Of a stretch of DNA of 42,762 bases, positions 1 through 14,257 are shown piece by piece. The stretch is taken from positions 1 to 42,762 of IMG/VR virus record IMGVR_UViG_3300025009_000198, one strand, 5' to 3'. Within the stretch, counting starts at the first letter, position 1, and each line of letters starts with the position of its first letter. Origin of the DNA: a virus. A program made the position numbers and the translations under genes. The notes under the pieces are model-generated. The model saw only the letters and a list, made by a program, of their open reading frames with translations, had not been told where the DNA came from and did no database searches.

Positions 1-117
1 AGCCTGTGTTCGTGGCAGCGCTCTGGTAGCCTGTGTTCGTGGCAGCGCTCTGGTCGCCTGTGTTCGTGGCAGCGCTCCGGTAGCCTGTGTTCGTGGCAGC
101 GCTCTGGTAGCCTGTGT
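1..117. repeat. 27-bp coding tandem repeat, left contig end
   Basis: Four 27-bp units plus a partial one (first unit 1-27, AGCCTGTGTTCGTGGCAGCG then CTCTGGT). Units differ only at a few positions (TCTGGT or TCCGGT; AGCC or CGCC). Read on the minus strand each unit gives nine residues. Bases 1-77 are identical to 42685-42761 at the other contig end, and the next base differs (C at 78, T at 42762). Confidence 0.95.
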
Positions 118-451
118 TGGATTCCTTAGCGTCTTTCCAGTCCACGCGGTCCAGGATAAACTTTAGACCAAATTCGATAATCCCTTTCAGACCGATCTCC
201 ACGCCGACTTTTAATTTAGTACAAGCAACTTTGCTGTCGTCACCGTCTTTATCTGTTTTACCGTCACCTTCTACCGTTGCGTACCGACTATCGCAAGGAG
301 GGTAGTAGTTAAAAACATCAAGTGGCTCTTCGCAAAAATGGAACCCTTTTCGGCAAGCTTCGGCATCGGCCTCTTCATATTCGCCACCTGCAGCGAATTG
401 GAACCCTCTGCACGCCATGTCCTTGTCAAAACCTTTGAAACCTCGAATCAT
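1..451 (-). CDS. DUF7666-like repeat protein, N-terminal part (gene continues across the contig ends)
   Basis: The ATG at 451 follows AGGGGG at good spacing. The translation starts MIRGFKGFDKDMACRGFQF, has a Cys/Phe-rich N-terminal domain resembling DUF7666 phage proteins (KGFHFCEEPLDVFNYYP), and then enters a perfect nonapeptide repeat, SAATNTG followed by YQ, YR or DQ. The reading frame is still open at base 1. It resumes at 42762 in the same repeat and ends at 42401, so this is the first half of one gene on a circular molecule. It is in the early leftward operon after the 42-residue membrane protein. The function is unknown; the repeats could build a beta-solenoid-like stalk, which is inference. 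Confidence 0.8.
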   Translation of the reverse strand, partial: MIRGFKGFDKDMACRGFQFAAGGEYEEADAEACRKGFHFCEEPLDVFNYYPPCDSRYATVEGDGKTDKDGDDSKVACTKLKVGVEIGLKGIIEFGLKFILDRVDWKDAKESNTGYQSAATNTGYRSAATNTGDQSAATNTGYQSAATNTG

Positions 452-497
452 TTCTTTTCCCCCTCTAATTTGGTATACTGACATTGAATGATTTCCC

Positions 498-626
498 TTA
501 CGGCCTGTTGATGTTGACGCATCGACAGGCCTTTTTGCGTTTCTCCGATTGGTACCAGCACCACCCCCAAAAGTAAATCAGCATAGGAATAAAGTGGCCC
601 AGGAATACGGCTTGAGTGTGGTCCAT
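498..626 (-). CDS. small membrane protein, 42 aa
   Basis: Too short for most gene finders. The ATG at 626 follows AAGGAG about 10 bases upstream and begins two bases after the stop codon of the preceding gene. The product MDHTQAVFLGHFIPMLIYFW and onward has one hydrophobic segment with many aromatic residues and a basic, Cys-containing tail. It is in the same tight early operon. A longer in-frame start (722) overlaps the upstream gene and is less likely. The function is unknown. Confidence 0.5.
   Translation of the reverse strand: MDHTQAVFLGHFIPMLIYFWGWCWYQSEKRKKACRCVNINRP
511..540. other. inverted repeat in the end of the 42-aa gene
   Basis: GGCCTGT and ACAGGCC arms are followed on the plus strand by TTTTT, giving a terminator-like hairpin. 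No plus-strand gene reads into it from the left, so its role, possibly blocking antisense transcription, is uncertain. Confidence 0.35.
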
Positions 627-628
627 CG

Positions 629-1009
629 TTAAGTAATCTCCTTCCACTTCTTCCGGAGAGCTAAGGCGTCGAGATCCTTTTGGGCTTCTTCTGGAGTTGT
701 TCTCCATGGTAGATTCCTGCACCCGTGTTCCCCATACCCCGGAGCCTTGTCAGGCTTGCGGCAGAAGGTTTTAAAACAGTTTTCACCTAAACCGGCACGT
801 ACGAAGTAGACATGGCCGCGAGAATCAAAGTATTGCCTTATGGGTATTTCCTCGGGCCTCACCTCTTGATCCCAGCACTGCTTACAATTACTTTCCCTTT
901 CCTCGCAATGGGTTTGAGGCGTTTTGGTGTATCCCATTACGCAGTAGTCGTTTACGAGGGTTTCCTTTGGTATTCCGTGTTGCGTGGAAACTTGATCGAT
1001 TAATTTCAC
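629..1009 (-). CDS. Cys-rich phage early protein, unknown function
   Basis: The GTG at 1009 is chosen because AGAGGAGG lies directly upstream at good spacing; a further in-frame GTG at 1045 lacks this. The 126-residue product has a Cys/His set (HCEERESNCKQCWDQE, then a second cluster CFKTFCRKP and HGCRNLP) that could bind metal. The N-terminal 30 residues (LIDQVSTQHGIPKETLVNDY) look like a helix-turn-helix or short helical domain. It lies 4 bases after the 56-residue gene and 2 bases before the 42-residue gene in the early operon. I do not recognise a named family. Confidence 0.7.
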   Translation of the reverse strand: MKLIDQVSTQHGIPKETLVNDYCVMGYTKTPQTHCEERESNCKQCWDQEVRPEEIPIRQYFDSRGHVYFVRAGLGENCFKTFCRKPDKAPGYGEHGCRNLPWRTTPEEAQKDLDALALRKKWKEIT

Positions 1010-1013
1010 GTTT

Positions 1014-1184
1014 TCACCTCCTCTCAACGTGGCCAACGTTTTCACTATCTAAACTCTTTTTAGCGGCGTCATTTAGAATCCGTAGTCCGATCTTAAGAAT
1101 TACTTGCGCTAATTTATTTACCGCCTCCGGGTCCGGCTGCCGTGGATATGTCCGCTCTACGATGGTTGCCACGTATTCTCCCAC
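1014..1184 (-). CDS. small early protein, 56 aa, overlapping cro
   Basis: The GTG at 1184 has AAAGGG upstream and the TGA is at 1014. The sequence (VGEYVATIVERTYPRQPDPE, then an amphipathic helix KLAQVILKIGLRILNDAAKK) looks like a real folded small protein. The overlapping cro C-terminus, by contrast, degrades into low-complexity GGRIRGNHRR/GPGGG. It overlaps the cro gene by about 70 bases in another frame and ends 4 bases before the next start. The function is unknown. A repressor-operator-like site lies just upstream at 1200-1215. Confidence 0.55.
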   Translation of the reverse strand: MGEYVATIVERTYPRQPDPEAVNKLAQVILKIGLRILNDAAKKSLDSENVGHVERR

Positions 1185-1407
1185 CTTTTACCCTTTCAAT
1201 AACCGCATTCGTTAATGAATCTTTAAAAAAAATACCTGGTTCTTCATGCAATAATCCTGCGATAACTTCAAGACGGTCCGCGTCTATTCCAGCTATGCCT
1301 CTTTCGATGTTGTTATACTGCTGCCGTGTAAGGCCCAGTTGTTCAGCCATAAAATTCGTCATAACTCCTTTTGCTTTTCGTACACGCCTTACCCTAGCGT
1401 TAATCAC
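1114..1407 (-). CDS. Cro-like helix-turn-helix regulator
   Basis: A 97-residue product with an HTH_3/Cro-CI domain in the first 60 residues (GVMTNFMAEQLGLTRQQYNN, then IERGIAGIDADRLEVIAGLL). It starts with GTG at 1407 behind AAGGGAG. It is the first gene of the leftward early operon and is transcribed divergently from the CI-like gene across a shared operator region. By phage analogy it would switch off the repressor and allow early transcription; this is inferred from position. The C-terminal third overlaps another gene and is atypical. Confidence 0.8.
   Translation of the reverse strand: MINARVRRVRKAKGVMTNFMAEQLGLTRQQYNNIERGIAGIDADRLEVIAGLLHEEPGIFFKDSLTNAVIERVKGGRIRGNHRRADISTAAGPGGGK
1200..1215. 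promoter_or_regulatory. operator-like site inside cro
   Basis: TAACCGCATTCGTTAA. Its first 15 bases are identical to the site in the intergenic region (1427-1441), although here it lies inside the cro coding sequence, just upstream of the 56-residue gene. It could be a repressor roadblock or looping site. Confidence 0.5.
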
Positions 1408-1425
1408 TTTTTACCACTCCCTTTA

Positions 1426-1441
1426 TTAACCGCATTCGTTA
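1426..1441. promoter_or_regulatory. repressor operator, downstream of early promoter
   Basis: TTAACCGCATTCGTTA, an imperfect dyad with TTAACCG/CGTTA half sites. It lies about 8-23 bases downstream of the predicted start of the leftward early transcript, between that start and the cro ribosome binding site. Confidence 0.6.
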
Positions 1442-1455
1442 CTTGCTTATTTCGT

Positions 1456-1484
1456 ATTATATTAACCGTAACCGATAATGTCAA
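1456..1484 (-). promoter_or_regulatory. early promoter (PR-like), consensus sigma-A
   Basis: On the minus strand TTGACA (1484-1479), a 17-base spacer (1478-1462) and TATAAT (1461-1456), a perfect consensus. It reads into cro with a leader of about 42 bases. The spacer is exactly the operator TTATCGGTTACGGTTAA, so a bound repressor would cover the promoter. Confidence 0.85.
1462..1478. promoter_or_regulatory. repressor operator filling the early promoter spacer
   Basis: TTAACCGTAACCGATAA (plus strand). It shares the TTAACCG half site with 1426-1441, 1200-1215, 4249-4264 and 4299-4315. It fits precisely between the -35 and -10 boxes. Confidence 0.7.
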
Positions 1485-1587
1485 GAATAAATTTACATAA
1501 ACGTGCATATATTATCTACTTTCGTTAATACTATATAAGTGCTACAGTTTTAATGCTAAAATATACTTTAAAATATAAGGGGAAAAG

Positions 1588-1986
1588 GTGAATTCATTGG
1601 CTAAAGACGTAGGCGAAAGAATACGTGAATTACGTACTAATCGGGGTTGGCTACAGTCCGAATTAGCCGAAAAAATAGGTATAACTAATCAAATGATCTC
1701 TAACTGGGAGCGCAGTTACACAAAGATAATAGATGCTCAAGATGTCGCAAAACTAGCTTCTGTATTTGAAGTATCTACTGACTATATATTACTAGGCATA
1801 ACCCCAACTCAAAAAATACAAGAAGCGTTAGCCGATGATACAGAGTTATTGGAGTTTTTTAACGACCTGACCACTAGAGAAGAATTACAAATTTTATTCA
1901 AGCAAGTGAAGCCCCTAAAAAAAGAAACGATTAAACGTATTATTAAGTATATAAAAATTGTTGAGGATGAAGAGTCCAATGAATAA
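1588..1986 (+). CDS. CI-like phage repressor (HTH_3)
   Basis: A 132-residue product with a Cro/CI helix-turn-helix at residues about 8-65 (GERIRELRTNRGWLQSELAE, then KIGITNQMISNWERS) and a helical C-terminal region instead of a LexA-like peptidase domain. This is the architecture of Bacillota repressors that are inactivated by ImmA-type proteases. It starts with GTG behind AAGGGG. It is divergent from cro and followed by a terminator and then the ImmA/IrrE-like gene. It should keep the early promoter and, by shared operators, the 4.3-8.7 kb cassette off in the lysogen. Confidence 0.88.
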   Translation: MNSLAKDVGERIRELRTNRGWLQSELAEKIGITNQMISNWERSYTKIIDAQDVAKLASVFEVSTDYILLGITPTQKIQEALADDTELLEFFNDLTTREELQILFKQVKPLKKETIKRIIKYIKIVEDEESNE

Positions 1987-2015
1987 ACCCGCCGATTAAT
2001 TTCGGCGGGTGTTTC
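1987..2015 (+). terminator. Rho-independent terminator after the repressor gene
   Basis: Stem CCCGCCGA / TCGGCGGG with a short AT loop, followed by TGTTTCT. It separates the repressor from the protease gene, so the two may be transcribed at different levels. Confidence 0.75.
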
Positions 2016-2057
2016 TATCTAAAGGGTGTCCGACAAATTAAGATAGAAGGTGACAAT

Positions 2058-2372
2058 ATGGAACAAACCGTTAGTAGAATCGACTTGAGTGAAAACATAG
2101 TTTGTCATCAAGTCTACATGGGCGAAGGCGTGAAGGGCTTTGTCTACTTGTCGAAAAAGGGTACGTATCACATATTTATTGCAGACACCTTATCTCCAGA
2201 AGCTCAATCCGAAGTTCTAGCCCACGAAATGCACCATATCAAACACGACTTACCCCCAGGACACTATTTCATAGGTCTAGATGCCCAAGGCACTGATTTT
2301 GAGATTAAGGCTAACTCTTCAGCGAGAAAATCGGCTGCCGCTATGCTTAACCTGATCACTAGCGCCATCTAA
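2058..2372 (+). CDS. ImmA/IrrE-type metallopeptidase, short form
   Basis: A 104-residue product with the zinc-peptidase motif HEMHH (residues 56-60) within EVLAHEMHHIKHD, as in ImmA/IrrE (Peptidase_M78) proteins. In ICEBs1 and related phages these cleave or inactivate the CI-type repressor on induction. It is preceded by GAAGG at good spacing and lies next to the repressor gene. It is shorter than ImmA of ICEBs1. Its end overlaps the end of the convergent integrase by 14 bases. Confidence 0.8.
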   Translation: MEQTVSRIDLSENIVCHQVYMGEGVKGFVYLSKKGTYHIFIADTLSPEAQSEVLAHEMHHIKHDLPPGHYFIGLDAQGTDFEIKANSSARKSAAAMLNLITSAI

Positions 2373-3999
2373 CTCTTTCTCCGTTTTTTCTAGAGAATGC
2401 ATGGAATATCCATGTACTCTCTATGTTATAAAGTGTGGTATGGTTCTGCGCATTTCTTGAGATGCTTAACTCCATACCATGAAAAAAATAATACTGAGCC
2501 GTAACTATCGAGTCCCATTTTCCAGCCTCATTTAATACAGTTTTTACCTCTACTCGGCGCACCATGGCCCGGACAAGAGCAGACTTTTCTTCTTCGGTTA
2601 ACTCGTCTAAATGATCACGTACTGCATCGATCACTAGACGTACGTTTAGTACGTTGCCTTCAAAATTTTGCGCGTTATTTATCTTGTCAAATAGAAATTC
2701 CTTCCGTGAATTCAAAGACCCTAATTCGTTAGCCAATTCTTCTAAGGCTTCCTCAGCTTCTTGCTCTGTTAATTTTCCCCGAGTCATTAGGCCTATGACC
2801 TTACCCCTAGCCGCCTGCTTATCAATGATAAAATTTTCTACCTCGGCTAATTCAATTTGTAGAGGCTCACTAGACTCTTTGTTTTTCCCCAGTTCCTTTT
2901 CCATTTCTTCTATCAATTCTTCAGGGTGCGATAAAAGCTCGTAGATATCCTCCCATACTGCGTTTTCAACATCGGCAGCTCTTAACTGTTTGGTATCACA
3001 TTTTTTTCCCTGTCCGTATTCTACGGTACCAGTACAACGGTAGTAAACCCTTCCGCTTTTGCTGTCTCCGCTGCTGCCTACTAATGCCCTACCACATTTA
3101 GAGCAATAAATAAGCCCCCGTAAAAGATAGTTATGCTTTTTACTCCCCCTAGCTACATCCGCGTTTTTAACTATTTTTTCCTGCATATCCGCATATTTTT
3201 GATAGTCTATAATAGCTGGAACTTCCAGCTTTATAGTATCTCTTTTCCTTTTTGATCTTTTAAGATAACTGTAAGATCCCATATAGGCTGTAGTTCTCAA
3301 AATAATAGAGATGTGCCCAGCGTGCCATTTTCCCGTACTCTTATTCTTTGTACCCTTAGACACAGCTGGGGTAAGAACGTCTTTAGCATTCAGGTATTTA
3401 GCCACTTCCACGGTACTCATTCCGTCTTCATACAGCTGAAATATCAGGCGTACCGTATCTGCTTCCGGATCGTAGATAGCCAGCCTCTTATCTTCGATGC
3501 GATACCCAAACGGCGGGGCTCCTGATACCCATTTCCCTTCTCTGACGTTACGGTCCTTTCCCCCCTGGGTACGTTCTAGAATGGTTTCGCGTTCTAATGC
3601 CGCGATACTAGCGAGAAGCGTCATGAAAAATTTGCCGGTCGGAGTACCTGTATCAAACGCTTCAGTCATGCTTTTTAGTGCGATATTTTGCTTCTCCAGC
3701 AGATCGTAGGTATCGAGTACGTTTTTTACGTTACGCGCTAACCGGTCTAGCCGGTAAATAAATAAGATATCAAACTTCTTATTTTTAGCGTCCAGTACTA
3801 ATTTAGACCCAGCGGGGCGTTCGGATAGGGCGATAGTTCCAGAAATACCCTCGTCCAGGTAAAATTCATGTTCTGTTATGCCCATTTCAGGGCCGTGTAA
3901 TTCTAGGTAGCGCTTAGCATAGTCTACCTGGGATCCAATCGTCCCCTTCTCTACCTGTTCGTCGGAAGATACCCGGCAGTATATGGCACATCTTACCAT
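2359..3999 (-). CDS. large serine recombinase / phage integrase
   Basis: A 546-residue protein with a resolvase N-terminal domain starting CAIYCRVSSDEQ (catalytic Ser at residue 11), the conserved LFIYRLDRLARN region, a Recombinase domain, and a zinc ribbon (CSKCGRAL ... YYRCTG ... KKCD). A coiled-coil region follows, as in large serine integrases. It catalyses integration at attP/attB and, with a directionality factor, excision. It is in the lysogeny region, convergent with the ImmA gene. No excision factor or attachment site could be identified with confidence; attP would be expected in the flanking DNA, for example 4000-4090. Confidence 0.95.
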   Translation of the reverse strand: MVRCAIYCRVSSDEQVEKGTIGSQVDYAKRYLELHGPEMGITEHEFYLDEGISGTIALSERPAGSKLVLDAKNKKFDILFIYRLDRLARNVKNVLDTYDLLEKQNIALKSMTEAFDTGTPTGKFFMTLLASIAALERETILERTQGGKDRNVREGKWVSGAPPFGYRIEDKRLAIYDPEADTVRLIFQLYEDGMSTVEVAKYLNAKDVLTPAVSKGTKNKSTGKWHAGHISIILRTTAYMGSYSYLKRSKRKRDTIKLEVPAIIDYQKYADMQEKIVKNADVARGSKKHNYLLRGLIYCSKCGRALVGSSGDSKSGRVYYRCTGTVEYGQGKKCDTKQLRAADVENAVWEDIYELLSHPEELIEEMEKELGKNKESSEPLQIELAEVENFIIDKQAARGKVIGLMTRGKLTEQEAEEALEELANELGSLNSRKEFLFDKINNAQNFEGNVLNVRLVIDAVRDHLDELTEEEKSALVRAMVRRVEVKTVLNEAGKWDSIVTAQYYFFHGMELSISRNAQNHTTLYNIESTWIFHAFSRKNGERVRWR

Positions 4000-4090
4000 T
4001 AGAGTATGACCACCTTTCTTGTCTTAGGACAACTTATGTCACTCATAGAGATTATAGCAGGTGACAAAGAGAGGGGCTGGTTTTATCGGG

Positions 4091-4228
4091 GTGGAATACA
4101 TTAGGGTATTACCTGAGAAAAATGATCCCGAAGCAATAAAGCAGTTTTTAAAATTGCTAATCGAAATTTCTCAACGCCTGCAAAACCAAGAACATCCTCC
4201 TTCCAATGAGTCTCAGGAAAGCACCTGA
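4091..4228 (+). CDS. small acidic protein upstream of cassette, 45 aa
   Basis: GTG start at 4091, TGA at 4226-4228. The product (VEYIRVLPEKNDPEAIKQFL, then KLLIEISQRLQNQ) is helical. A good terminator hairpin overlaps its last codons, which supports a real short transcript. The ribosome binding site is weak (AGGGG about 14 bases upstream). It is divergent from the integrase; an excision-related role is possible, but nothing in the sequence proves it. Confidence 0.45.
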   Translation: MEYIRVLPEKNDPEAIKQFLKLLIEISQRLQNQEHPPSNESQEST

Positions 4229-4238
4229 GACTTTTCTC
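4210..4238 (+). terminator. Rho-independent terminator
   Basis: GTCTCAGG, a 6-base loop, CCTGAGAC, then TTTTCTCT. It isolates the 45-residue gene from the operator-controlled cassette promoter downstream. Confidence 0.8.
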
Positions 4239-4248
4239 TGTCCATAGT

Positions 4249-4264
4249 TTAACCGCAAAGGTTA
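4249..4264. promoter_or_regulatory. second operator upstream of the T4SS-like cassette
   Basis: TTAACCGCAAAGGTTA, with the same TTAACCG half site and imperfect dyad as the switch-region operators. It lies 35 bases upstream of the promoter-embedded operator. Confidence 0.5.
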
Positions 4265-4292
4265 TTATTATACATCGAATGGGATTATTTTA

Positions 4293-4321
4293 CTGTAATT
4301 AACCGCATCGGTTAATAATAT
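4293..4321 (+). promoter_or_regulatory. cassette promoter with embedded operator
   Basis: CTGTAA (weak -35, 3 of 6), a 17-base spacer that is the near-perfect palindrome TTAACCGCATCGGTTAA (4299-4315), then TAATAT (-10). This is the same operator-in-spacer geometry as the early promoter at 1456-1484. The predicted leader to the GTG at 4370 is also about 42 bases. Confidence 0.65.
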
Positions 4322-4369
4322 TATGTATCAGGTATATATTATTTAGCTGGTACGAAAGGAGTTGATAAT

Positions 4370-4564
4370 GTGAGCCAGCTCGTCAACACAAGCGTTACCC
4401 TAACAACGGAGCAAATTACATTCACCAGGGGTAAAGGAAACACCAGCCGGTACATTCGCAGCCTGATAGACCGTGAAATAGGCAACGAACAAGCAACTGC
4501 GCGATGTCAATCCTTGGTTAGGGCTTACCAGAACGTCTTAAACAAAGAAAAAAGCCCCCGCTAA
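4370..4564 (+). CDS. small ribbon-helix-helix-like protein
   Basis: GTG start behind AAAGGAG. A 64-residue product whose first half (VTLTTEQITFTRGKGNTSRY, then IRSLIDREI) has the beta strand plus two helices of Arc/CopG-type DNA-binding proteins. It is the first gene of the plus-strand cassette and probably an autoregulator or a DNA-binding accessory factor. The family call rests on pattern only. Confidence 0.6.
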   Translation: MSQLVNTSVTLTTEQITFTRGKGNTSRYIRSLIDREIGNEQATARCQSLVRAYQNVLNKEKSPR

Positions 4565-4655
4565 CGGAGCCTAGACTGTGCCTATGTAAGTTTATCGTCT
4601 ATAAACTTTATGCGACAGGTACCCCGTTTTATTCCAAAAAGGAGGTATTCCGCAA

Positions 4656-4976
4656 ATGTTAAGATTAACCAACCATTTCCGCAAGCACAAAAGCTTCTAT
4701 TTTCAAGTCGGAATTACGGCGGCCGCAATGCTCCTCTCCCCTACCGTGGCTTTAGCTTCAAACCTTGACGATAAAGGCATGAGTATTTATTGGAAGATTG
4801 TCAGTGTAGGTAAATATGTAATTTTGGGTAAAGGGTCCGTTAACTCTATCCAGTCTGTCTTAGACGGGGACTATGAAAAAGCAAAACATCAGTTTATTGG
4901 ATACCTCATATGCTTTGGCGCTATGCTTGCCCTCCCCCAAGCGTTGGACCAAATAGAGGGGCTGTTTAAATCATGA
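4656..4976 (+). CDS. VirB2/TrbC pilin-like membrane protein
   Basis: A 106-residue product behind AAAAAGGAGG. A basic N-terminus and hydrophobic stretch end in VALAS (signal-peptide-like, cleavage near residue 35). Then come a second hydrophobic segment, a short charged loop (DGDYEKAKHQ) and a third hydrophobic segment (FIGYLICFGAMLALPQAL). Signal peptide plus helix-polar loop-helix is the layout of VirB2/TrbC-type pilins of type IV secretion systems. Its stop overlaps the start of the next gene (ATGA), so the two are co-translated. A holin-like role is an alternative, but the phage already has a holin with its lysin. Confidence 0.5.
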   Translation: MLRLTNHFRKHKSFYFQVGITAAAMLLSPTVALASNLDDKGMSIYWKIVSVGKYVILGKGSVNSIQSVLDGDYEKAKHQFIGYLICFGAMLALPQALDQIEGLFKS

Positions 4977-5602
4977 TCTTAGCGGCTTTAAAGGGTGGAG
5001 TTATATTAGCCGTTGTAACCATGATCATGACTAAGCCTGTATTATTCCTTGCTTACGCACATGTTGTCGCATTGATTGGTTGCACGTCATTAATCCTCTT
5101 ATATGTAGGGGGATTCAAGCAGGGGCTTAGATGGGTCGGTATAGCGCTGGTTAGTTACATTCTCCTTAATATTTTCATAGACGTCAACGGGGGTAGTGAC
5201 ACAGTTAAACGCGGTGAATATATCGCCCCGGTTGTTGGACCAGTATCTAGCCCCTTCGGCCCACGCCTTTCCTCCCCCGAGGGATTTCACTACGGTATAG
5301 ATTTCGCGGTACCGGAAGGTACTAAAGTTCGATCGAGTAAAGCAGGAACCATAAGCCTTGCTGGATACAACGGTAACATAGTTGGTAATGTAGTGGAAAT
5401 TGATCACCCGGACGGGACACAGACAATGTACGCCCACAACAGCCAGGTATTACTTATCGTAGGTCAGTCAGTAAAACAGGGCGATGTTATAGCCTTAAGC
5501 GGTAACACAGGGCGCAGCACAGGCCCCCATGTACATTTCGAAATACGCCTTGATGGTGGAAAAACGTCAGTCGATCCGGCACCACACTTGAATTTAAAGT
5601 AG
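4973..5602 (+). CDS. membrane-anchored M23 (LytM) peptidase
   Basis: A 209-residue product with about three N-terminal transmembrane segments (residues about 6-70), a short linker, then a LytM/M23 domain. The zinc-ligand motifs are HYGIDFAVPEGT (HxxxD) and GPHVHFEIR (HxH), with the MYAHN His in between, all present. M23 enzymes cut peptide cross-bridges in peptidoglycan. Here the domain would face the wall from the membrane, as wall-remodelling enzymes of Gram-positive conjugation systems do. The start overlaps the preceding stop. It lies between pilin-like and ATPase genes rather than in the lysis module. Confidence 0.85.
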   Translation: MILAALKGGVILAVVTMIMTKPVLFLAYAHVVALIGCTSLILLYVGGFKQGLRWVGIALVSYILLNIFIDVNGGSDTVKRGEYIAPVVGPVSSPFGPRLSSPEGFHYGIDFAVPEGTKVRSSKAGTISLAGYNGNIVGNVVEIDHPDGTQTMYAHNSQVLLIVGQSVKQGDVIALSGNTGRSTGPHVHFEIRLDGGKTSVDPAPHLNLK

Positions 5603-5615
5603 GAGGTAAATGGTA

Positions 5616-8006
5616 ATGAAGCCTATTAAACTAAGCGAGTACGTGGCGATTATAAAGCCAACCTACGTATATTTGAGACTTACACCAAACAATGCGATCC
5701 GCAACAACACGTCTAGCAACATTGCCAAGACTATCGGATCGCTATTCAAGACATTGCGGCAAATCATAAAGACAGAACGCAAGAAACTAATTAAGGCGAT
5801 GGGAAAGAAGTTATTGGGTACCAAGTTTTCCGTGGCCTTGAATCCTAAGGTTAGCTACTACATTTATGTCGAAAAGAAGCGTATCGAGTTTTACTTTATA
5901 GTGCCAAAGCAGTACGAGAGCATTATTAGGGAAAAAATGTCCGATACTTGGGACAGCGTAACTATTAAACCCGTGGATGAGCTTCCGAGCTTTAGTGAGG
6001 ACTCGACTATATATCAGTTGGCCTACTCCAAGGAAGATGGCCTTAGCCTAGCGGTAGATAAGCGCAGCAATAAACTCTTGGAAAGCAACATGAATATAGT
6101 GGACATCATGGAGGACGGTGACAAGGTTGGCATATTCTACAATTTCATCCCTACATCCCAGCGCAGTTGGCTAAGCGAGTATAGGTCCACGATAACGAAG
6201 GTACGCATGGAGCAGCCGGTGGATAAAAACAAAGCGGGACCTAAGTACTTGGCTAAATGGGCGTTCTCTCTTTTGTCGGGTCTACTAAATGACGTTGGCC
6301 AAGTGCTTGGAGGTGACGGTAAATACATCGCCAAATACGAAAAGGATAACGCAATGATTTTGAAGCAAACGTTATCCAGTATTTCTAATCATAAAGTTGT
6401 GTCTGATGCCACAGTTATCAAGGGTAAAAACATGGTGCTCAAGGCCCAAATTATTGTACTTAGTGAAAGTAGGGATGAGTTACGGCAACGTAACAATGCG
6501 AAATCTCTAGCCCAAAGCTATGATTGCATAGGCGGCGAAGACAATAGCTTACTTCATAGAAAATATAAGGGGAGGTTTAATCACTTGGATACTAAAGTAA
6601 AGGGTGCAGAAGTACTTAAGGTGGGCGTAGATGAATGTAGTAATTTTTTAGCCTTGCCAGGACGCGAACTTCTGGCGAAACACAAGTTTATTGAGAAAAT
6701 TGAAACCTTAGAGAGTGAGGTTCCGGACGAACTCCTTACCGGCGTAATGTGCCTGGGGGAAAATACCTTCAAGGGGAATAAGCAAAAGGTCTACATGAGC
6801 ACCGACTTTGATTACCAAATGCTTTCACTGGTGCTCATCGGACCGAACCGAGCAGGGAAATCGAAGTTCCTAGCAAACATAGCTCGGGATGCAATTAAAG
6901 CGGGAGAATGCGTAATTATCCCAGACTTCATTGGGAGCTGCCAACTGAGTGATGAGATTGCTTCAGCCTTCTCTAAGGATAAAGTTCTTGAGGTCCGCTG
7001 TGACAACTGGGAGACATTGCAGGGTCTCGCGTATAACGAAGTACCTCCAAGTACGAACCCGTTTATACAGTATAAAAATGCCAAAGAGCAATCGGCGCTA
7101 CTTATGACACTTGTCGATAGTATCAATGCAGACGATGCGAGCTTTACTGCGAAAATGGGTAGGTATTTCGAGAGCGCAGCCTTGGTCGTATTCTTGTCGA
7201 ACGGCAATATCAAGGATGTGTTTGCTACTCTACTTAATTATAAAGTCCGAAAGGCATTTATCGATGTGGTATCTAAAGAGCAGATGGAGAACATGGAAGA
7301 ATATATTGATTACTTGAGAGAACTGGACGAAGTAGATAAGAAAGGCAAGGTAGTTGGCACCAAGACACACTTAATCACCGGTGCTGTGGATAGACTACAA
7401 AAGCTGAAGGTCAACGCCTACATCGAAACTATGTTGAAGAAAGGCAGTGAAAATAACATTGATTTGGTGCAGGAGATACAGAGGAACCAGTTAATAGTAA
7501 TTAAGATGCCACAACGGATGTTCTTGACCGATAACGAAAAGGATGTCTATGTAACCTATTGGATGACAAAGATTTGGCTTGCCCTGCAGATCCGGGAGGA
7601 GCAGGTCAAGGAAAGATCCAAAATGACCAAAGTAAATTTGATTATCGATGAGCTGTACCAGGTGAATAACGCCGAGAAGTTCCTTAAGCTGAAGTTAAGC
7701 CAACTCCCTAAATTTAATCTTAAGCCTATTATCAGTTGTCACTATCTTAATCAGGTTAAATCTATCCGCGAAGAATTCAGAAGCGCCAATGCGTCCTACA
7801 TGCTAATTTCGGGTTGTGATAAAAAGAACTTTGATGAGTTAAAAAGTGAATTATATCCATACACCGAAGAGGATTTACTAAGCTTAAAGCGCTACCACAG
7901 CTTGAACCTGATAAAGTGCAACGATAACTATGCCAAGTTCGTTACCCACCTTCCAGCACCTATTACGCACCACCAAGGAGGTGATGAAAGGAACGCTGCA
8001 GAATAG
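5616..8006 (+). CDS. VirB4/VirD4/HerA-like conjugation-type ATPase
   Basis: The ATG at 5616 is chosen because AGGAGG (5601-5606) is 9 bases away; the ATG at 5610 is too close. An ~800-residue product. The N-terminal ~400 residues have no clear motif beyond an early VirB4-like beta region (SYYIYVEKKRIEFYFIVP). The RecA-like domain has Walker A GPNRAGKSK (about residue 411), a Walker B line VNLIIDELYQV (about 675) and a following ISCHYLNQ segment that matches the motif after Walker B in TraG/VirD4/HerA pumps. Probably an inner-membrane or cytoplasmic motor for DNA or protein transfer, working with the adjacent pilin-like and M23 proteins. No relaxase is nearby. The assignment to VirB4 versus VirD4 is open. 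Confidence 0.75.
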   Translation: MKPIKLSEYVAIIKPTYVYLRLTPNNAIRNNTSSNIAKTIGSLFKTLRQIIKTERKKLIKAMGKKLLGTKFSVALNPKVSYYIYVEKKRIEFYFIVPKQYESIIREKMSDTWDSVTIKPVDELPSFSEDSTIYQLAYSKEDGLSLAVDKRSNKLLESNMNIVDIMEDGDKVGIFYNFIPTSQRSWLSEYRSTITKVRMEQPVDKNKAGPKYLAKWAFSLLSGLLNDVGQVLGGDGKYIAKYEKDNAMILKQTLSSISNHKVVSDATVIKGKNMVLKAQIIVLSESRDELRQRNNAKSLAQSYDCIGGEDNSLLHRKYKGRFNHLDTKVKGAEVLKVGVDECSNFLALPGRELLAKHKFIEKIETLESEVPDELLTGVMCLGENTFKGNKQKVYMSTDFDYQMLSLVLIGPNRAGKSKFLANIARDAIKAGECVIIPDFIGSCQLSDEIASAFSKDKVLEVRCDNWETLQGLAYNEVPPSTNPFIQYKNAKEQSALLMTLVDSINADDASFTAKMGRYFESAALVVFLSNGNIKDVFATLLNYKVRKAFIDVVSKEQMENMEEYIDYLRELDEVDKKGKVVGTKTHLITGAVDRLQKLKVNAYIETMLKKGSENNIDLVQEIQRNQLIVIKMPQRMFLTDNEKDVYVTYWMTKIWLALQIREEQVKERSKMTKVNLIIDELYQVNNAEKFLKLKLSQLPKFNLKPIISCHYLNQVKSIREEFRSANASYMLISGCDKKNFDELKSELYPYTEEDLLSLKRYHSLNLIKCNDNYAKFVTHLPAPITHHQGGDERNAAE

Positions 8007-11544: not shown

Positions 11545-11853
11545 TTAGCTGAGGTAGCCTTCGACTTCCTCAACGGTGAATCCAAGCTGAAATAGTCTAC
11601 AATTGGAGTCTTCCATGTATTCGTACTGGTAATACTGGGGTGTCGTACCAGGCATATCAGCATCTCCACCGACAACCTTGTGAGTTTCGTCTGTAATGCC
11701 GTCGGATTCATTTTGCAAAAGTCCGGTGTTTAACCACTGCATCCGCTCATCCAAGAGTTCCCGGAAGACAGGCTTCCACTGCTCTGGTGAGAAATTATCC
11801 TTCACATAGGCATAGTCTTCTTTCGTGTTTAGCCACTTAGGGAATCCAATCAT
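11545..11853 (-). CDS. hypothetical protein downstream of DGR reverse transcriptase
   Basis: A 102-residue acidic protein (MIGFPKWLNTKEDYAYVKDN, ending GFTVEEVEGYLS) preceded by GTAGGAGG. It follows the RT gene by 11 bases. It does not look like the basic four-helix accessory protein Avd of other DGRs; the conserved look suggests a tail-fibre assembly or accessory protein. No named family recognised. Confidence 0.65.
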   Translation of the reverse strand: MIGFPKWLNTKEDYAYVKDNFSPEQWKPVFRELLDERMQWLNTGLLQNESDGITDETHKVVGGDADMPGTTPQYYQYEYMEDSNCRLFQLGFTVEEVEGYLS

Positions 11854-11864
11854 AGTAATACCTC

Positions 11865-12884
11865 CTACGTCTTTGATTGTTCATTGCAAACTTCCATGAG
11901 TTCATCGATTCGTAAACTTTGCCTCAGATTGTAGCTATTTGACCATCTTAGCCACCCCATAGTTGACGCTAGCGACGACCTGTATTGGTCGATTGATATC
12001 TTGTTCTTGCCCAATAGCACCGGTAATCGCTTGATCCGCTTTTTAGTTCTCTTGGCCGTGCTTTTCCTAACGAGAATATAACCGCGAAAGTGCCTATATC
12101 CCAAGAAATCAACTCCACGTGACACTTGGAACAAGTCGCACTTACTAAACGTCAACCTTAGTTTTTCAAGTAAGAATTCTTCAATGATTACCGCCATCTC
12201 ACCCAGAAACTTTTTGTCATCATGAAATAGTAGGAAGTCGTCGCAATATCGAATGTAATGCTTAATGTGGTATTTGTGCTTCATTAACTGATCGAGTTCA
12301 TTCATGTACAAATTTCCGAACCATTGACTCGTGAAGTTACCAATTGGGGTATTCGTGTTGTCACCAATGCTGTAGATGATATCTTTGAGCAGCCAGAGTG
12401 TGTCCTTACATTTTATTTTCCTCTGTACGATCTCAAACAAGATATCGTGCTTGATCGATGGGTAAAACTTTGAGATGTCGCACTTTAGACAGTATTTGTT
12501 TTTGCGAACAAACTCCATGGTTCGTTTGCTACCGGAGTGCATTCCCTTACCGCTTCTACAAGCATAAGAGTCGTGGATAAATAACTTGTCCCATATCGGC
12601 TCAAGCACATTCAAGAGTGCGTGCTGAATGATCCGGTCAGGATTAAAGGGTAGTTTGTAGATCAAGCGCTTTTTAGGTTCAAATATGGTTTTAGTCTTAT
12701 ATGGTGAGGTTGTAAATGTTTTATTGGCAAGGCTTTCACGGATCTTAGTAATATTCGCGTCAAGATCTTTTTCAAAGTTTTGAACTGTATTTTGCCAACC
12801 TTTGCCCTTTCGTGCGCGAAGGTAAGCCAGGTGTATGTTCTCTTCACTGATTATCTGTCCAAATAGATTCCCGTGTCTTTTCAT
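11865..12884 (-). CDS. DGR reverse transcriptase
   Basis: A 339-residue group II-intron-like RT. The palm motif YIRYCDDFLLF has catalytic YCDD at residues 213-216, the upstream Asp is in LKCDISKFYPSI (133-144), and motif 4 is IGNFTSQWF (181-189), the GxxxSQ form typical of DGR RTs. A maturase-type thumb follows; no endonuclease domain. It copies the template repeat RNA with errors at adenines for transfer into the variable repeat. It directly follows the template repeat. The start ATG has no clear Shine-Dalgarno and a 9-bp hairpin lies just upstream, so translation may be low or regulated. Confidence 0.95.
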   Translation of the reverse strand: MKRHGNLFGQIISEENIHLAYLRARKGKGWQNTVQNFEKDLDANITKIRESLANKTFTTSPYKTKTIFEPKKRLIYKLPFNPDRIIQHALLNVLEPIWDKLFIHDSYACRSGKGMHSGSKRTMEFVRKNKYCLKCDISKFYPSIKHDILFEIVQRKIKCKDTLWLLKDIIYSIGDNTNTPIGNFTSQWFGNLYMNELDQLMKHKYHIKHYIRYCDDFLLFHDDKKFLGEMAVIIEEFLLEKLRLTFSKCDLFQVSRGVDFLGYRHFRGYILVRKSTAKRTKKRIKRLPVLLGKNKISIDQYRSSLASTMGWLRWSNSYNLRQSLRIDELMEVCNEQSKT

Positions 12885-12893
12885 AAATAATGT

Positions 12894-12933
12894 ATGGGCG
12901 TAATTTTCGCAAGATGCTACTAACTACGCCCAT
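12894..12933. other. inverted repeat in the leader between template repeat and RT
   Basis: ATGGGCGTA (12894-12902) and TACGCCCAT (12925-12933), perfect 9-bp arms around a 22-base loop, ending 9 bases before the RT start codon on the minus strand. GGGAGG abuts its 5' arm. It may shape the template RNA or control RT translation. Confidence 0.6.
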
Positions 12934-13016
12934 CCTCCCTTTTAGTGTTTTGCTTCATTTACATGAGACAGGGCCAACAGATCCAGCCAGGAGTTGCTCA
13001 AAACCTGTATCTGCGT

Positions 13017-13123
13017 GCTGAACTGACCACTGATATTCGAATTAGCATTCCAGCGATAATTATTCGCATTCCGTGACTGTGACCCGGAATTCGTGCCATT
13101 ATTCCAATTAGCGCCCGCCAGCA
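13017..13123 (-). repeat. DGR template repeat (TR)
   Basis: 107 bp aligning without gaps to 13160-13266. There are 19 differences, 18 of them at TR adenines of the sense (minus) strand and one at a T. In the target frame the TR would read AGANWNNGTNSGSQSRNANN, rich in AAT (Asn) codons, the codons that adenine mutagenesis diversifies best. It is noncoding here and lies between the target gene and the RT gene. Confidence 0.95.
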
Positions 13124-13144
13124 GACCTACTAGCCCATAAAATT

Positions 13145-14257
13145 TTACTGGCTCCGCGCGCCGAACCGACCACCGACATTCGAACCAGCACGCCAGCGAT
13201 AATAACTCGCAATCCGCGACCGCGACCCGGAATTCGCGCCATCATCCCACCTAGCGCCCGCCAGCAACTTGGTATCTCCATAAGTTCCTTGTCTATACAG
13301 CTGACCTTTTCCGCCCGGTAACGCATACCATCCCCAAGCGGGGGAGGGATCCGCTGACCCAGTCACCGCATTTTGTGTGTATGCAGCTGCAGTATTTTCA
13401 GTGTGCGTATGCGCAAGGCTGCTTAATTGGTAGCTCTGCTCGTCCAGCCATTGCCACATCGCGCCTGCGCAATCCTCACAGCCGATGTTGCTCACCATCC
13501 GTCTGCCAGCAGTGTCGCTGTGCCCTCCTGTGTTATTCGGATCAACAGACCCAAGAATATTGGTTTGCTCGTTAGACCCTGCGGCAATAACCTGGAACTC
13601 AAAGTCTTTCAATAATCGTTTTCTTACCGCTCCACCGTCATCCACGAAGCTATTCCAGTCTCGGGTGTCCGAAATAGTTGCGCCAAAGACGCTTGCAGTT
13701 GAGGGTCCTGTTCCGCTTGTTAGATAGATATCAACCCAGATCCCTGTGGCTGCTGAATAGACCATGCCTTCAGGGTTCGAGACTGGACGAAAGGCAAGGT
13801 CCCAAATTGACGCGGGGAGGATATCACCTGTCAAAAAGCCAGTCAGTGGATGACCTGCGACCGCTCCAACCGAGAGGCATAGGCAATGGAATCCACCGAT
13901 CTTGCGCGAGTTGGAGGAAGTATATCCGGTTGGAACTGTTGAGTTAGCTGAAAGCACGAAGGTAGGAGAATTACCGGAACCAGGTTGGCAAGCGTAAATG
14001 TAAAAATCTTTCCCGGCTCGGTTGGCTGCCACTGCGTAATCTGTCGGGGAAATAGAGTCCCAGCTCGCGGAATTATTTAGGTCGATGCTCGCTTGGGCCG
14101 GTAGCAAATAGCCCTGGTTGTTTATGTTAACCGTTAGCGTGTTAGGGGAGAGCAAGGTTGTATTAGCGCCTCCAAGCGCCCAGCTTACGTCTCTAGCATA
14201 GTGTGCTGGGACAGAGGCAATGGCCAGTCTAACGTCTGTAATGGGGTTAAATAGCAT
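13145..14257 (-). CDS. DGR target: tail fibre/adhesin with C-type-lectin-like C-terminus
   Basis: A 370-residue product. The N-terminal two thirds are beta-rich tail-fibre-like. The C-terminal region (WGWYALPGGKGQLY ... TKLLAGARWDDGANSGSRS) matches the C-type-lectin/formylglycine-type fold of DGR variable proteins. The last ~36 codons are the variable repeat, ending right at the stop. It should sit at the tail tip and bind the host receptor, with DGR action changing up to about 16-18 residues. It starts with ATG behind AGGGGG, 3 bases after the stop of the upstream gene. Confidence 0.92.
   Translation of the reverse strand: MLFNPITDVRLAIASVPAHYARDVSWALGGANTTLLSPNTLTVNINNQGYLLPAQASIDLNNSASWDSISPTDYAVAANRAGKDFYIYACQPGSGNSPTFVLSANSTVPTGYTSSNSRKIGGFHCLCLSVGAVAGHPLTGFLTGDILPASIWDLAFRPVSNPEGMVYSAATGIWVDIYLTSGTGPSTASVFGATISDTRDWNSFVDDGGAVRKRLLKDFEFQVIAAGSNEQTNILGSVDPNNTGGHSDTAGRRMVSNIGCEDCAGAMWQWLDEQSYQLSSLAHTHTENTAAAYTQNAVTGSADPSPAWGWYALPGGKGQLYRQGTYGDTKLLAGARWDDGANSGSRSRIASYYRWRAGSNVGGRFGARSQ
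13160..13266 (-). repeat. DGR variable repeat (VR)
   Basis: The last 107 bp of similarity at the 3' end of the target gene. Codon changes from TR include AAT to GAT, ATT, AGT, TAT, CGT and GGT, and CAG to CGG, with flanking GC-rich blocks conserved. Adenine-dependent differences continue for a few bases past the aligned block towards the stop codon. VR and TR are separated by only 36 bp. Confidence 0.95.

Follow-up and report, generated by a model that had tools for sequence, protein, structure and literature searches.

An Mtd-type diversity-generating retroelement in a phage genome without avd and without the OB-fold-like gene of its relatives

Organization of the cassette and its target

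The window analysed here is the whole 42,762-nucleotide stretch of IMG/VR virus record IMGVR_UViG_3300025009_000198. The cassette lies on the minus strand in the order target gene (14257–13145), variable repeat (VR; 13266–13148), template repeat (TR; 13123–13005) and reverse transcriptase (RT; 12884–11865). The target gene (13145–14257) encodes a 370-residue Mtd-family tail protein with a C-type-lectin (FGE-subclass) C-terminal domain. The VR (13148–13266) forms the final 119 bp of its coding sequence before the stop codon and shares 81% identity with the TR (13005–13123), which holds 34 adenines. The interval between TR and RT (12885–13004, minus strand) corresponds to the spacer (Sp) of the RNA of a diversity-generating retroelement (DGR). 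The RT gene (11865–12884) encodes 339 residues and is followed by a gene for a protein of 102 residues (11545–11853, minus strand), whose position as downstream neighbour of the RT is conserved in relatives; this protein had no Pfam or PHROG matches. The gap between the two genes is 12 nt in the window versus about 290 nt in the relatives.

Genes for a terminase, a minor capsid protein, a tape-measure protein, a holin, an amidase and a serine recombinase were also found in the window, which is therefore taken to derive from a temperate-looking tailed phage. Among the other phage genes is one for an Enc34-type ssDNA-binding protein (PF10991). On the plus strand, a 798-residue open reading frame (5610–8006) with an ATP-binding GPNRAGKS motif was assigned to PHROG 5156 (unknown function); it adjoins an M23 peptidase gene (4973–5602) and resembles an ATPase of the conjugation type, here carried by a phage.

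The target protein was matched to Pfam mtd_2nd (PF21916; E = 1.7e-20), to the tail protein PHROG 11262 (1.6e-56) and, by sequence, to the BPP-1 Mtd structures in the PDB (1.8e-15). An AlphaFold model of moderate confidence (mean pLDDT 69) was aligned with Mtd with a Z-score of 23 and an r.m.s.d. of 3.7–4.1 over about 290 residues. Weaker structural matches were Treponema TvpA (Z-score 12) and TaqVP from Thermus (Z-score 8.7), both of which are DGR variable proteins. The protein thus combines an mtd_2nd domain with a lectin C-terminal domain and, judged by sequence and by predicted fold, is homologous to the Major Tropism Determinant of BPP-1. These searches bear out the initial annotation of the locus, made from the DNA letters, as a DGR acting on a phage tail adhesin.

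The RT was recognized by Pfam RVT_1 (E = 5.9e-21). Its best solved relative is 8ub7_A (1.6e-52; 181.9 bits versus 76.7 bits for the next), which is labelled only 'Reverse transcriptase' in the table and which we take to be the RT of the BPP-1 DGR. All 77 of the 77 near-invariant columns in an alignment of 40 relatives are retained. The motifs YCDD and IGNFTSQ, both reported in the initial annotation, are present in 11865–12884. The SQ of the latter falls in the motif-4 region and is a hallmark of DGR RTs (PMC3521204); in its motifs, as in its nearest structure, the enzyme is of the DGR type.

Adenine-specific differences and the DGR RNA

A pair of 107 bp repeats (TR 13017–13123 and VR 13160–13266) had been annotated at the 3′ end of the C-type-lectin-like gene, and both repeats are present. 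A recount of their differences returned the earlier figure, 18 of 19 at template adenines; A accounts for 29 of the 107 bases in the TR (hypergeometric P = 5e-12). The repeat runs further in the 3′ direction to 119 bp (TR 13005–13123 and VR 13148–13266), and the similarity stops at the last codon of the target before the stop. Over this length there are 23 differences, with 21 at adenines and two T→G. Of the non-adenine differences, one (T→G at 13107) falls within the VR core and counts against the explanation that we favour below. The separation of 36 bp given previously holds for the 107 bp repeats, whereas the gap between the full 119 bp repeats is 24 bp. The TR codons had also been described as mostly AAT; AAT is indeed the commonest A-containing TR codon, but at ten of 23 the word 'mostly' is a slight overstatement. 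No change at a TR adenine is able to create a stop codon, and the 21 variable codons allow about 10^18 possible proteins. Self-comparison of the whole window revealed neither a second TR/VR pair nor any other copy.

Relatives were gathered as 65 relatives of the target, further relatives of the RT and 33 contigs sharing the TR-spacer motif, and a repeat scan of these yielded 57 non-redundant TR/VR pairs. When the 57 cassettes were pooled, the VR differed at 982 of 1567 TR adenine sites versus 174 of 4911 other sites. No non-adenine core difference was present in 41 of the pairs, and three carried 15–46 such differences (these are probably gapped and hence out of register). Comparison of VRs among related phages with a constant TR, a check suggested with the initial annotation, gave differences almost exclusively at TR adenines. 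In contigs L073, L074, L090 and L095, from four metagenomes, the TRs are identical and the VRs differ at 16–18 of 30 adenine sites and at none of 84 others; the upstream target DNA is also identical (the stretch compared is only 34 nt for pairs that include L073). The DGR family is active in close relatives. The only second contig of the present phage (L002) differs from the window by one base in 6.4 kb and has an identical VR. No current activity is therefore seen in this phage itself, which counts against our favoured explanation. A search of viral contigs with a DNA pattern derived from the TR returned L002, already known, as its sole match.

Among the relatives, the 75 kb record IMGVR_UViG_3300029286_003689 (L008 and L085) carries two Mtd-type target loci, at 1–6074 and 41305–47580 of the contig.

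The spacer of 120 nt is conserved in an alignment of 22 relatives, with an invariant core (AACTCCT.GCTG) and with AACTCCTGGCTG almost invariant. A conserved hairpin with a 12 bp outer stem (12894–12933, minus strand) is supported by covariation, with both sides changed in ten of the 12 stem pairs, and is present in the window's own fold. For the whole spacer structure 95.9% of cells were paired; none of 500 shuffles scored as high and slid controls gave 28–51%. A structured RNA supported by covariation thus lies downstream of the TR. A scan of Rfam gave nothing above the cutoff, from which we conclude that this RNA is not covered there; the covarying spacer (12885–13004, minus strand) could found an Rfam family.

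The 3′ ends of the two repeats are IMH-like. In the VR this end (GCGCGCGGAGCCAG; 13148–13161, minus strand) is GC-rich, and in the TR the IMH*-like end (GCACGCAGATACAG; 13005–13018, minus strand) has CCUGGCUG of the spacer RNA as its predicted pairing partner; pairing with the spacer core was likewise predicted for GAUACAGG at the TR 3′ end. In 50 of the 57 cassettes GAGC in the VR stands opposite GATM(C/T) in the TR at an unchanged register (GAGCC and GATAC, respectively, in the window). This fixed difference of two bases (GATAC or GATCC in the TR versus GAGCC in the VR) is likely to be the IMH*/IMH signature of the lineage, by analogy with BPP-1. No hairpin was found between VR and TR in the window; the same scan found a clear one in many, but not all, relatives.

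An OB-fold-like gene beside the RT in relatives

In the relatives, a gene of about 95 codons lies just after the RT gene and mostly overlaps its 3′ end (for example 7496–7804 of contig L003). The predicted structure of its product is a β-β-β-α-β-β barrel (pLDDT 88), the best matches of which were OB folds and other small barrels. Bacterial single-stranded DNA-binding proteins (SSBs) gave a Z-score of 6.4 and an r.m.s.d. of 2.2 over 68 residues, and POT1 and RPA were also among the matches; Z-scores below 8 for this model are indicative of fold only and not of function. The model suggests that the protein has an OB-like fold. Sequence searches of Pfam, PHROGs and the PDB provided no usable name for it.

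In the first set of relatives, all of those whose sequence extends far enough past the RT carry the gene. Of the 80 nearest RT loci, retrieved by an RT search that was blind to it, 77 have it as well, and the window is among the three without it. The adjacency is not absolute, as the gene lies about 1.6 kb from the RT in L050 (6105–6431) and 2.7 kb away in L220. In the reverse look-up, a DGR RT was located upstream of or beside the gene in at least 76 of 80 viral matches, most within 200 nt, and all nine matches in bacterial and archaeal genomes lie beside a DGR RT. One bacterial DGR (L194, Muricauda; 4868–4947) has two VR copies per TR and the OB-fold-like gene, and no Mtd-like target was found in it; this helper may therefore not be restricted to Mtd targets.

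bAvd (PF22296) was absent from the window and from the cassettes of the relatives in a search that finds the BPP-1 protein at 2.2e-37. Matches in the contigs of three relatives were rejected as their Avd because they fall outside the DGR cassettes; the match in IMGVR_UViG_3300029286_003689, at 71607–71900, is away from the cassette of L085. The OB-fold-like protein is a candidate DGR accessory in cassettes without avd, in phages, bacteria and archaeal viruses. It may be the same as a DGR-associated protein of an earlier survey that had no Pfam or CDD entry (PMC10053308), and an ORF labelled 'Avd' in a figure of the ANMV-1 genome (PMC4372165) may also be this gene.

In the window only the first codons of the gene remain (ATGAACAATCAAAGACG; 11868–11884, minus strand), overlapping the RT 3′ end and corresponding to ATGGAAGATCAGAGACT in L003; about 270 nt are missing, which places the next gene only 12 nt past the RT. 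An hmmsearch of the window's six-frame translation with the accessory family gave a best E of 1.8, which was rejected as chance. The cassette had been called compact in the initial annotation, and it is so beyond what could be seen there, since both Avd and the OB-fold-like gene of the relatives are missing. Because the RT, the DGR RNA and the target look intact, the locus is a natural deletion of a candidate Avd substitute. In L207 the gene is truncated in its own way, and L267 is without it and has 28 VR/TR differences, 27 of them at TR adenines.

Interpretation and comparison with known DGRs

The repeats, the Mtd-type target, the type of RT and the VR changes of the relatives all support the original reading of the locus as a DGR. 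The cassette is almost certainly a phage DGR whose target is a receptor-binding tail protein of Mtd type. It is a genuine element of known kind, with target and RT homologous to those of BPP-1 and without avd. If the element works as that of BPP-1 does, the RT would bind an RNA that carries the TR together with the structured spacer and reverse-transcribe it from a start near the TR 3′ end (IMH*). Template adenines would be misread by the RT, mostly giving A→G, and the mutated cDNA would replace the VR, so that as many as 21 codons in the lectin domain at the tail tip would be altered and never to a stop. Phage progeny with an altered lectin domain could then bind altered receptors. We infer these steps of the mechanism, and an effect on host range, from the comparison.

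The gene end might instead simply have been duplicated in tandem and then diverged by drift, beside an unrelated retron-type or group II RT. This would account for neighbouring in-frame repeats separated by 24 bp, but it is extremely improbable given the concentration of 18 of 19 differences on one template base (P = 5e-12), the same asymmetry across the 57 related cassettes and an RT that has the SQ motif and is closest to 8ub7; the adenine-only differences among relatives with identical TRs already refute it. The spectrum of the changes raises another question. A→G makes up 17 of the 21 adenine differences in the window (the median over cassettes is 0.56). Editing of the template RNA or an Arg/Gly constraint, rather than misincorporation by the RT, could produce such an excess, and scaffold codons in several relatives do show a consistent CAG→CGG change. 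We regard this as unlikely. The bias is undiminished at fourfold-degenerate TR codons (73 G, eight C and two T), where the amino acid cannot be selected, which places it in the copying. C is moreover the commonest misincorporation of the BPP-1 RT in vivo (PMC12875486), so that the excess is not new.

Whether the element still works is a closer question. It may have been switched off recently by deletion of an essential accessory, with the present VR frozen from earlier retrohoming, and we consider this a real possibility that falls well short of an even chance. Of 80 close relatives, 77 keep the accessory and only a short relic survives here, the VR is the same in both contigs, there is one non-adenine core difference and no post-VR hairpin was found. 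Decay is not yet visible, however, as all 77 near-invariant RT columns and the RNA fold are intact; L267 likewise has no accessory and yet 27 of its 28 differences are at TR adenines, and the Enc34-type ssDNA-binding protein of the phage might compensate. Most likely, the DGR of this copy retains reduced activity or retained it until recently.

The BPP-1 DGR (mtd-avd-TR-brt) shares with the window a homologous target and RT, the order target(VR)-TR-RT, adenine-specific differences, a structured spacer after the TR and homologous variable codons (N-W-N-N-x-T-N-S-G-S in the window TR and N-W-N-N-T-S-N-S-G-S in BPP-1). Unlike BPP-1, the window lacks avd, its variable codons are AAT rather than AAC, and target and TR are only 22 bp apart. 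BPP-1 also has a hairpin between VR and TR; that none was found here counts against continued function, as does the lack of any known accessory when set beside the loss of BPP-1 activity without Avd (PMC12875486). The nearest named relative is the DGR of Caudoviricetes sp. vir525 (BK063673; recorded host Methanosarcinales), which has the same order and is 56% identical in target and 66% in RT but has the OB-fold-like gene still in place over the 3′ end of its RT gene. The archaeal virus ANMV-1 (Paul et al., 2015; PMC4372165) also carries a DGR, with an RT 38% identical to that of the window; its OB-fold-like gene (AJP62065) is present right after the RT, and its target was unmatched to that of the window in the phage search.

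Any novelty would lie in the helper gene and its loss in this phage. Accessory genes of DGRs were reportedly surveyed chiefly by Wu et al. 2018 (NAR). We tentatively propose, at slightly less than even confidence, that one lineage of Mtd-type DGRs, spread over phages, bacteria and archaeal viruses, has swapped Avd for a small SSB-like OB-fold protein encoded over the RT 3′ end, and that the present phage is a natural deletion mutant showing loss of this helper with RT, RNA and target intact. The locus adds a clear Mtd-type DGR without avd and draws attention to a conserved OB-fold-like gene linked to DGR RTs; cassettes that have or lack this gene form a matched pair for the function of accessory proteins. 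The route by which mutated cDNA enters the target gene is still mysterious (PMC12875486), and a helper resembling an ssDNA-binding protein would bear directly on this step from cDNA to target.
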